Below, one piece after another: positions 47,001 to 50,000 of a DNA stretch of 64,000 nt (its first letter is position 1; every line of letters starts with the position of its first letter). The stretch lies in contig JAQGDQ010000315.1 of the NCBI GenBank assembly GCA_030141605.1, positions 62,001-126,000 of the forward strand, in the 5' to 3' direction. Source of the DNA: Tubiluchus corallicola (lineage: Eukaryota > Priapulida > Priapulimorpha > Priapulimorphida > Tubiluchidae). The translations under genes were made by a program, and so were the position numbers. Below the pieces are notes generated by a model. That model was not told the DNA's origin. It made no database searches and saw nothing but the letters and a program-made list of their open reading frames with translations.

Positions 47001-50000
47001 ATGTCTGCTTGAACTGTCTGCGTGAACTGTTGATAGACTAAATACTTGGAGATGATTAAAGTCACCAGTTGCTATGACTGTTACTCCTGTATGTGTAGCT
47101 ATTACAGTAATTCGTTCCGGAGGGGCTTTCGTATCTTAGAATTTTCATATTATGAGACAAGATTACCCTATAAATGGCGTAATTTGTTCCAGCCCCCCTC
47201 CCCGAAAACAGTCGTATAAAGTGTAAATATTGTACCCACCATATTAATGACAACATAATCATTTACATTAATGTTGAAAAACAATGAGAAAAGATAAGAG
47301 TACGACAAAGCATTCACGTGATGCTACGTAATGCATTCTGGGAGGACCACTGTCGGGCTGCACTTTCGATTTTCGTTTTCATATCTTGAATATTTTTCGT
47401 TAAATAGGACGGAAATTTCTTCTAAGCCCGATTCGTATTCTGAATATTTCGTATAATAGGGTTTTCGTAAGTCAAGGTTCCACTGTATAATGACAACGTA
47501 TGTCATGTAGGAAGATGTTGCCTCCTTATGGTCGTGCAAAAATTTTCATTGTAGATTTTAAACATTAGAAACAAAAAAGAGTGTGTCCAATTTACTTGTA
47601 CATTTTTGTCCAAAAGAGTGGTAAAAATTAGGTTGAAATGGTGCCTGATTGTACTCCTAAACTAGAGTATTACCGCTCAGTTGAGAAATTCCTGTTTTGC
47701 ATGCTGCACTGATAATTAATTTGGTTTTACAGTTATAGGTAGGTGCAGGTGGGACGGCTTCTAAAAAGATATATCAGATACCCGCTGACGACACATGAGT
47801 TGTGTGTCCATTTTCTCTTTCAGATCACTTTATCGAGGATTTGAATGTCTGTGTTTGTATTTGTGTCTGTTTTTTTAAGTGTGTGGTCATTGTTGAAGGC
47901 ACGATCTATGTTGGAAAGGCTTATTCTTTTCTCTCTCCAGGTCTGCAACTGGTTCGGCAACAAGCGGATCCGCCACAAGAAGAACATGCGAAACATAGGT
48001 AAGAAATGGGGTGTGGTTGGGGAAGCAGTGAATTCTGATGAAGGATTTTCTCTCCGCAGGTGTCTAACTGGTTCGGCAACAAGCGTATAAGGTACAAGAA
48101 GAACATAGGTAAGGCACAGGAGGAGGCTAATCTGTATGCAGCAAAGGCTGCGGCAGCTACAGCAGCGGCATCGGTCAGCGGTCAGACTGCCGGACAGCCG
48201 GGTAAAGTAGTCAAATTGCAGGCCATCCATGGCCGTCCACTTATTGACCTGCCTGGCTAACTCGACTCAGAACATAAGCCTTCAGTGCCTGTCTTATTGA
48301 AGGAGATACTGAAAATTCTGTGTATTGAAAAACATTGTTCTAAAGTAGAACTGTTCATTTTCCCTGGTGGTCTTCTCTGAACTGATATATAATAATGTGT
48401 CTGCATTTTGCAGTTTATTTCTCAAATTTTCAGTAATCTCTTTTGATAAGAAAATTACCTGTTTCTGTGAGAACAATTCCTAAGTTGTTAACTTAGCTTC
48501 TGACAACCTTCCGTTAATGTAGTTCTAACTTTCCAACAACATTGTCTTGCTTTACACCTCTTTTCCATCCTTTACAAGCATTGCTGAAACAACCAAATGA
48601 CTAACTCGCAAGTGTGTGCTTGTGCATGTGTTAATCCTTCACACCCATAAAAGTTGCCTCGTTCTTTCACCATTTTTTCAGGTTTTTGTTGATGTCCAGT
48701 GCCAGTGTATCTTTTACTAAAACTGCGCTTACATTTGCTGCATTTATCAAAGCCTCAAGCTTTTAACTAATGTGTTTTGATTGCTTTTTTTACTTTATGC
48801 GCCAGTTTATTTGCTTCCCAGTTTAATTTTTCTGTGCGATTTTGCCTCAAGTGCTTGCATGGATTTTCGTATTTGCTTTATCGCCCGTTCCTATGAAATT
48901 CAGGAACCTTCTTGTGCTGTTGAGCTTTGTTTTAAGTTGGTGTTTTCAGTTTTCAGTTTTCAGTTTTACTAAAGGCACAGATGAATGATTATTCGTGTCT
49001 ACAGACATTGTGCATTATTGTGCTTATTTTCTGGCATGTGATAAGTGACAAATACTCTATGATATTATTCCCATTTGAAACTAATTTGGTCAAACTGATT
49101 GGCTAATGTATGTAACTGTTTCAAGTTGTGTGTCCACTGTCCAGTGTCATGCCTGATAGTGGGCAAGTGTGCCCATGGCTCAGTTTAAATTTTGCTTTAT
49201 CCTGTTTGAATAATAATGCAAGATAGCTATAAAAATATTTGTAAGTTTCTGTAAATTAAGAGAAAAGTTTTAATTCTACTTGCTTAATTTTACGTAGTTT
49301 AATCCTGGTAATATTTTTCATTTCATGTAGCTGATTAAAAACAGTTATATAAATTTAACATTGAATAAACCTGCTTTTGTAAATTTTAGCAAGTGCATTT
49401 TGTATTGAACCATCTTGTGGTATCAGTTCATTCTCTATTCATAGCTAATATATTGGTTTTTTTTGTAGGTTATAATTTGGTGCCTAATTCTCAAGGCCAA
49501 ATGATGGGAGGTCAGCAGGAGATGTACAACATGAACGGCGACGGCTACCACAGTGGAGCATCAGTTGGTGCTAACGTGCAATCACAGGTGGGTAAAAAGC
49601 TTTAGTGATTTTTTCATTCTGAAAAGTCGATCACGTTTAGCAAATCCTGAATCATGACCTTGACAATTGCCTTTATTGGTTGTGAAAGTAAATAATGTAT
49701 TACTATTATGATTTATAATTACGATCAACCTCAGATATATGGGACACCTCCGGACCGGGAAAAACCGTCCTTTATATCTCAAGTTGAGTCAAACCGAGGG
49801 TGTATATAGACCTCTACTTTTTTGTACTTTTACCCATATTTTGATGGATTATTGCTGCACTGAATCTCCTTCAGTGATTAAGGGGGGGGGGGGATGTGAC
49901 CGCGGAAACCGAGCTGTTCAAAGCCCGAGTTTGCGAAAAATCGAGGTTAAAAATCGATTAATTTTGCTTTGATCATAGGGTCCCTTATATGCGAGGTAAT

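Follow-up and report, generated by a model that had tools for sequence, protein, structure and literature searches.

Pbx proteins are common partners that confer much of the DNA specificity of Hox proteins. Several splicing systems described elsewhere bear on the pair of exons (6a and 6b) reported here. In FOXP1, the mutually exclusive exons 18 and 18b alter part of the DNA-binding domain of a developmental regulator, as 6a and 6b would do, but that domain is a forkhead and not a homeodomain, and the FOXP1 swap changes motif preference (PMC11701043), whereas 6a and 6b do not differ in their base-reading residues. Splicing also alters the behaviour of a PBC gene, as is proposed in the present study, in the exon 7 switch between mammalian PBX1a and PBX1b (PMC4755740) and in PBX1d (PMC10884236). 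Unlike 6a and 6b, PBX1a and PBX1b differ at the C-terminus alone (PMC4755740), and a duplicated helix-3 exon is not mentioned in the available parts of the papers on PBX1a/b (PMC4755740) or PBX1d (PMC10884236). Micro-exon 8 of Drosophila homothorax, in which an early donor within the full exon gives a short exon, resembles a possible short form of 6b, but homothorax is a Meis-family gene without exon duplication, for which mutually exclusive copies were ruled out (PMC7392893). In the Manila clam, pbx4 is differentially spliced between the sexes, the exon concerned not being named in the available part of the source (PMC9803972). The exons reported here belong to a known kind, in which a DNA-binding domain is encoded in part by alternative exons in tandem, and their interest lies in the proposed helix-4 switch in a Hox cofactor and in its recurrence.

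The Pbx/Exd gene and its two helix-3 exons

A search of the 343,548,820-base genome with the PBC domain profile PF03792 gave three matches, each above the cut-off and every one in the Pbx/Exd gene of the window (the whole 64-kb stretch of DNA that was analysed), which is the sole PBC gene detected in this genome. Neither this genome-wide profile search nor a query with the 173-nt stretch spanning the exon pair, whose single match in the genome was itself, found a second Pbx gene or an allelic contig. The gene lies on the + strand and was modelled with nine coding exons plus one alternative exon (Table 1), its introns ranging from 1014 to 18,558 nt apart from the one of 61 nt between 6a and 6b. 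Exons 5 and 6b together match PBX1 (1b72_B, 1.2e-45) and Exd (4cyc_B, 1.1e-44), and thus encode a Pbx-type TALE homeodomain. Our exons 5, 6a and 6b are exons 6, 7a and 7b of an earlier, sequence-only reading of this DNA.

Table 1. Features of the Pbx/Exd gene, in positions of the window
Feature	Position	Strand	Remarks
Pbx exon 1, coding part from ATG	19885..20072	+	MDEQQRL...DEAQAR; donor GTGTGT
Pbx exon 2 (PBC)	21947..22020	+	PF03792 match C1917:83945-84022
Pbx exon 3 (PBC)	40579..40829	+	PF03792 match C1917:102575-102835
Pbx exon 4 (PBC)	43583..43773	+	PF03792 match C1917:105580-105768, E 2e-28
Pbx exon 5: homeodomain helices 1 and 2 with TALE loop	44788..44923	+	phase 0 end at ITVSQ
UGU-rich stretch 5' of exon 6a; possible splicing-regulator site	47794..47893	+	13 TGT/100 nt; putative function
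Exon 6a: alternative helix 3 exon, Cys46, His56, ends NMRNI-G, without helix 4	47941..47998	+	58 nt
Intron 6a/6b, 61 nt: two G4 runs, candidate branch point CTGAT	47999..48059	+	
Exon 6b: canonical helix 3, helix 4, Ala-rich tail	48060..48201	+	142 nt
Possible short exon 6b: canonical helix 3, no helix 4	48060..48108	+	internal donor ATAG/GTAAGG; in frame with exon 7
Pbx exon 7, phase 1 entry (G/YNLVPNSQ...)	49469..49587	+	
Pbx exon 8	51892..51975	+	
Pbx exon 9, last coding exon of model	53629..53800	+	

Three other regions of the window deserve mention. An open stretch of 120 nt at 52995-53114 (+), lying between an AG and a GTAAGT and in phase 0 at both ends, may be a cassette exon of the Pbx gene, located between its exons 8 and 9. 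Long open frames at 33627-36074 and 36031-36630 (+), within Pbx intron 2, appear by eye to be retroelement remains of the reverse-transcriptase type, and a further long open frame downstream of Pbx, at 60291-61760 (+), is by eye ionotropic-receptor-like.

Between exons 5 and 7, the helix-3 exon is present in two tandem copies, 6a and 6b. Each is preceded by AG, enters in phase 0 and leaves in phase 1, and both fit exons 5 and 7; the adjacent, phase-matched duplicates claimed by the sequence-only reading were thus verified in coordinates and in phases. The frame is kept by exactly one of the two exons: 6a joined to 6b reads NMRNIGV-stop, and skipping of both gives a frameshift with an early stop. 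When Drosophila Exd and the PBX1 C-terminus were used as queries against the window, Exd recovered exon 6a at E = 7e-5, and the remaining matches below 1e-3 with either query were ordinary Pbx exons. The Exd match and the single genome match of the pair together rule out chance similarity of 6a. No further duplicated Pbx exon, of the kind seen in the gastropod and mussel models described below, was found in this gene below E 1e-3 in the window search.

Over the 15 codons compared, 6a and 6b differ at 8 of 45 bases, with five synonymous changes over eight synonymous sites and three non-synonymous changes over 37 (one Arg codon being averaged over two paths), giving a dS of 1.34, a dN of 0.086 and a ratio of 0.064. 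Under free drift, an outcome with at most two amino-acid changes and no stop has a P of 0.0018. The earlier statement that synonymous positions differ widely was overstated: there are these five synonymous changes, but a 20-nt core is identical in the two exons. At all eight differing sites exon 6a has G or C, and its GC3 is 0.89 as against 0.47 in the remaining gene, the adjoining introns having 34% GC; because the 61-nt intron has 48% GC, the G or C at these sites may partly mirror local composition. Splice sites in the 4.5-kb region between exons 5 and 7 were scored with simple consensus tables, which gave the 6a acceptor the top rank among 242 AG sites and placed the 6a donor second among 326 GT sites. 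Examined by eye, the introns flanking 6a and 6b have little in common except a pyrimidine tract and GTAAG, which gives no impression of a recent duplication.

These values bear on whether 6a is a decaying or unused copy, with a frame open by chance and spliced rarely or as noise. Such a copy would be consistent with a length of just 19 codons, with the binomial P of 0.012-0.059 obtained from a one-sided model (6b constrained, 6a drifting) and with the peptides KNMRN and MRNIG, which were present in none of 274 fetched proteins (from the best 120 of 370, the best 120 of 2429 and the best 120 of 476 matches), among which exon 6a itself was found in no relative. However, the region's best acceptor and second-best donor, the GC3, dN/dS ratio and G or C content of 6a, and flanks that do not point to a recent duplication all argue against decay, which we regard as unlikely. 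Low dN/dS, frame logic and splice-site ranks agree with the suggestion of the sequence-only reading that the duplication has been selected. Judged by its sequence, exon 6a is a real and probably functional alternative exon, and the reading that we favour, and consider fairly probable, is that the only Pbx/Exd gene detected carries, in 6a and 6b, a functional exon duplication in tandem whose two copies are spliced as alternatives.

DNA readout and the fourth helix

The residues N47, G50, N51, I54, R55 and K58, which we take to be those at the base-reading positions of the homeodomain, are identical between 6a and 6b, and a difference in base-contacting residues of the kind that marks a FOXP1-type specificity switch is not found between the two exons. 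Both of the substitutions pointed out previously, Ser46 to Cys and Tyr56 to His, are indeed in 6a. Among the 273 fetched Pbx proteins that were counted (P0043 did not fit the motif pattern), Cys46 is common, being present in 36, whereas His56 is unusual and was found in none (Tyr in 269, Phe in four). The usual EEANxYAA helix-4 motif accompanies Cys46 in 23 of the 36, including annotated barnacle, Artemia and insect proteins, and is missing from the other 13. Of the switchable recognition helix that had been proposed, the duplicated helix-3 exon therefore stands, but a change in base readout is doubtful because the presumed base-reading residues are identical and Cys46 is a common variant. To the idea that the main effect of 6a is a different DNA sequence preference, brought about by Cys46 and His56, we give very little credence, the loss of helix 4 being a far larger change, even though His56 sets 6a apart from the proteins counted and FOXP1 exons 18 and 18b illustrate that an exon swap can alter DNA preference (PMC11701043).

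The 6a donor, ATAG/GTAAGA, is the same sequence that codes for Ile-Gly-Lys inside 6b (ATAGGTAAGG), so that ATAG/GTAAG is an exon end in 6a and is read through in 6b. As 6a ends at N-I-G, with its donor used where 6b reads on, it is without the entire fourth helix; by sequence, this helix is present in 6b and missing in the 6a form, which continues into GYNLVPNSQ. The segment after helix 3 of PBX1 is reported to be unstructured and to form a fourth helix upon DNA, and this helix enhances partner binding at a remote site (PMC4786136). PBX1 truncated at residue 308, just beyond the homeodomain, binds DNA with PREP1 like the full-length protein (PMC4391845), which is in keeping with retained Meis/Prep pairing of the 6a form, but some of helix 4 may still be present in this fragment, which therefore leaves the effect of losing that helix unsettled. 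Exon 6a is best read, from these sequence comparisons, as a helix-4 switch. The predicted 6a protein would lose the fourth helix but retain the base-reading residues along with the PBC domain, and would thus be expected to pair with Meis/Prep and to recognise similar DNA, while having a lower affinity for DNA and cooperating less with Hox proteins. If 6a does weaken Hox cooperation, splicing would set the ratio of Hox-cooperating Pbx to Hox-independent or competing Pbx. The altered Hox cooperation suggested by the sequence-only reading is accordingly plausible, but chiefly through the deletion of helix 4 and not through residues 46 and 56.

Exon 6b also contains a donor of its own at 48108, which has the top score of the 326 GT sites (9.80, compared with 5.52 for the donor at 48201) and which, if used, would end the exon at the base homologous to the 6a end, in frame and with helix 4 likewise removed. 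As this internal donor is both strong and in frame, the animal may have two routes to a helix-4-less Pbx, the second such form perhaps coming from this site. That the internal donor is the stronger one is awkward for our best explanation unless it is restrained. At 48108, the conserved Ile-Gly-Lys codons after the homeodomain make a near-perfect 5' splice site; short exons without helix 4 could be widespread if other animals have retained these codons.

Choice between exons 6a and 6b

Exon 6a may be kept from joining to 6b by the 61-nt intron, which would set the 6a donor too near the 6b branch point. Judged by eye, the best branch-point candidate is CTGAT, whose A is the 40th of the 61 intron bases and so less than approximately 50 nt away from the 6a donor. 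Mutual exclusion in OGDH is enforced by branch points that lie 25-41 nt from the 5' splice site (PMC7969005), although the threshold of approximately 50 nt between 5' splice site and branch point comes from vertebrate work (PMC7969005) and may not hold for this animal. The choice of 6a itself may be set by its own strong sites together with two flanking features, a UGU-rich stretch on the 5' side and G-runs on the 3' side. Of the 100-nt windows scanned between exons 5 and 7, those richest in TGT are found immediately 5' of 6a (highest count 13), and two G4 runs lie 3' of the 6a donor, both being candidate regulator sites.

Alternatively, 6a could be a poison or truncation exon which, when joined to 6b or when the 61-nt intron is kept, brings in a stop just past the homeodomain and leads to message decay or to a short Pbx. 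The NMRNIGV-stop junction fits this, as does retention of the 61-nt intron, from which reading runs to a stop after 48087; in addition, introns of 60 nt are spliced in many invertebrates, and one of 61 nt would be spliceable there. A comparable shortening at the C-terminus is known from mammalian PBX1b (PMC4755740). However, a poison exon does not require a conserved frame, and yet the dN/dS of 6a is low and its phase matches that of exon 7 exactly, so this alternative seems to us quite improbable, and alternative use of 6a and 6b is the reading that we carry forward.

Helix-3 exons in other animals and what the pair may mean

Alternative helix-3 exons in Pbx/Exd were in no title or abstract opening among the 12-20 best-ranked open literature matches per query. 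The earlier statement that Pbx isoforms are not known to differ in the recognition helix does not quite hold, as database models from Tubulanus and oysters already swap this exon. In the nemertean Tubulanus polymorphus, the gene models for Pbx X6 (P0006) and X2 (P0227), whose contigs are of equal length, have an alternative helix-3 exon at the same point and are identical elsewhere save for two small insertions. As with 6a, the swap falls at the same protein position and brings Cys46 and an altered helix-4 region; unlike 6a, the Tubulanus exon retains Tyr56, is longer and has a diverged tail, and the animal belongs to a different phylum. AlphaFold2 placed a helix at 290-327 in X2 and at 283-304 in X6 (304 corresponds to 311 in X2 numbering), with pLDDT values for the blocks after helix 3 of approximately 60-65 in X2 compared with 40-52 in X6, in what are poor models with means of 50 and 49. 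In these models the Tubulanus alternative exon also changes the helix-4 region.

Gene models for Crassostrea virginica Pbx X11 and X13 (P0110 and P0218) likewise swap two helix-3 exons, and a near-identical pair is present among the listed proteins of C. gigas, Ostrea and Saccostrea. Like 6a and 6b, the oyster exons are two interchangeable helix-3 exons, but both have Ser46, Tyr56 and the EEANxYAAK motif, and they differ at residue 61, in scattered places and in the following tail. In the tubeworm Ridgeia, a Pbx model (probably a fused prediction) contains two consecutive helix-3 exons with the canonical-like copy first, the reverse of the 6a/6b order, and Lingula Pbx X2 has Cys46 and a diverged tail. 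When 6a was compared with ten exons over 20 ungapped residues, 13-14 positions matched with each, and because the sequences are too short this identity is uninformative on exon origin. The opposite exon order in Ridgeia favours repeated origin and disfavours common descent of the pairs. In a 38-row tree, in which Lingula was represented by X2, the window Pbx fell outside Spiralia (100/94), outside deuterostomes (97/95) and on the arthropod side (98/90), so the spiralian examples and the pair in the window are probably far apart. As no more than a guess, this placement might point to an ecdysozoan outside the arthropods, such as a priapulid. That 6a shares an origin with the Cys46 alternatives seen in Tubulanus and Lingula is not supported, given the uninformative identity and the reversed order in Ridgeia.

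Other irregularities were noted in the fetched proteins. An oyster entry named 'HOX12 protein isoform 3' (P0061) may derive from a cloned cDNA. The Pbx models of Pomacea, Mytilus, Owenia and Biomphalaria (P0001, P0121, P0123 and P0124) contain the helix 1-2 part of the homeodomain twice, and protein pairs from Mytilus and Littorina differ in this part; the duplicated part points to a putative second alternative-exon pair in the homeodomain of those gene models. A salmon pbx1 model (P0130) has six copies of the NPYPSEE helix-2 motif, probably a repeat, assembly or model artefact.

We tentatively suggest, as a possibility to which we would not yet commit ourselves, that duplicated helix-3/helix-4 exons form a widespread and overlooked switch in protostome Pbx/Exd, between a form that co-operates with Hox proteins and one in which helix 4 is altered or missing while Meis/Prep pairing and DNA readout are preserved. 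Such a switch would have arisen more than once (here, in a nemertean, in oysters and in a tubeworm), and would have been missed since the usual laboratory animals lack it. If splicing removes helix 4 but keeps base readout, Hox cooperation would be tunable without a second Pbx gene, and a natural helix-4-less Pbx, if true, would provide an in vivo test of the role of the fourth helix.
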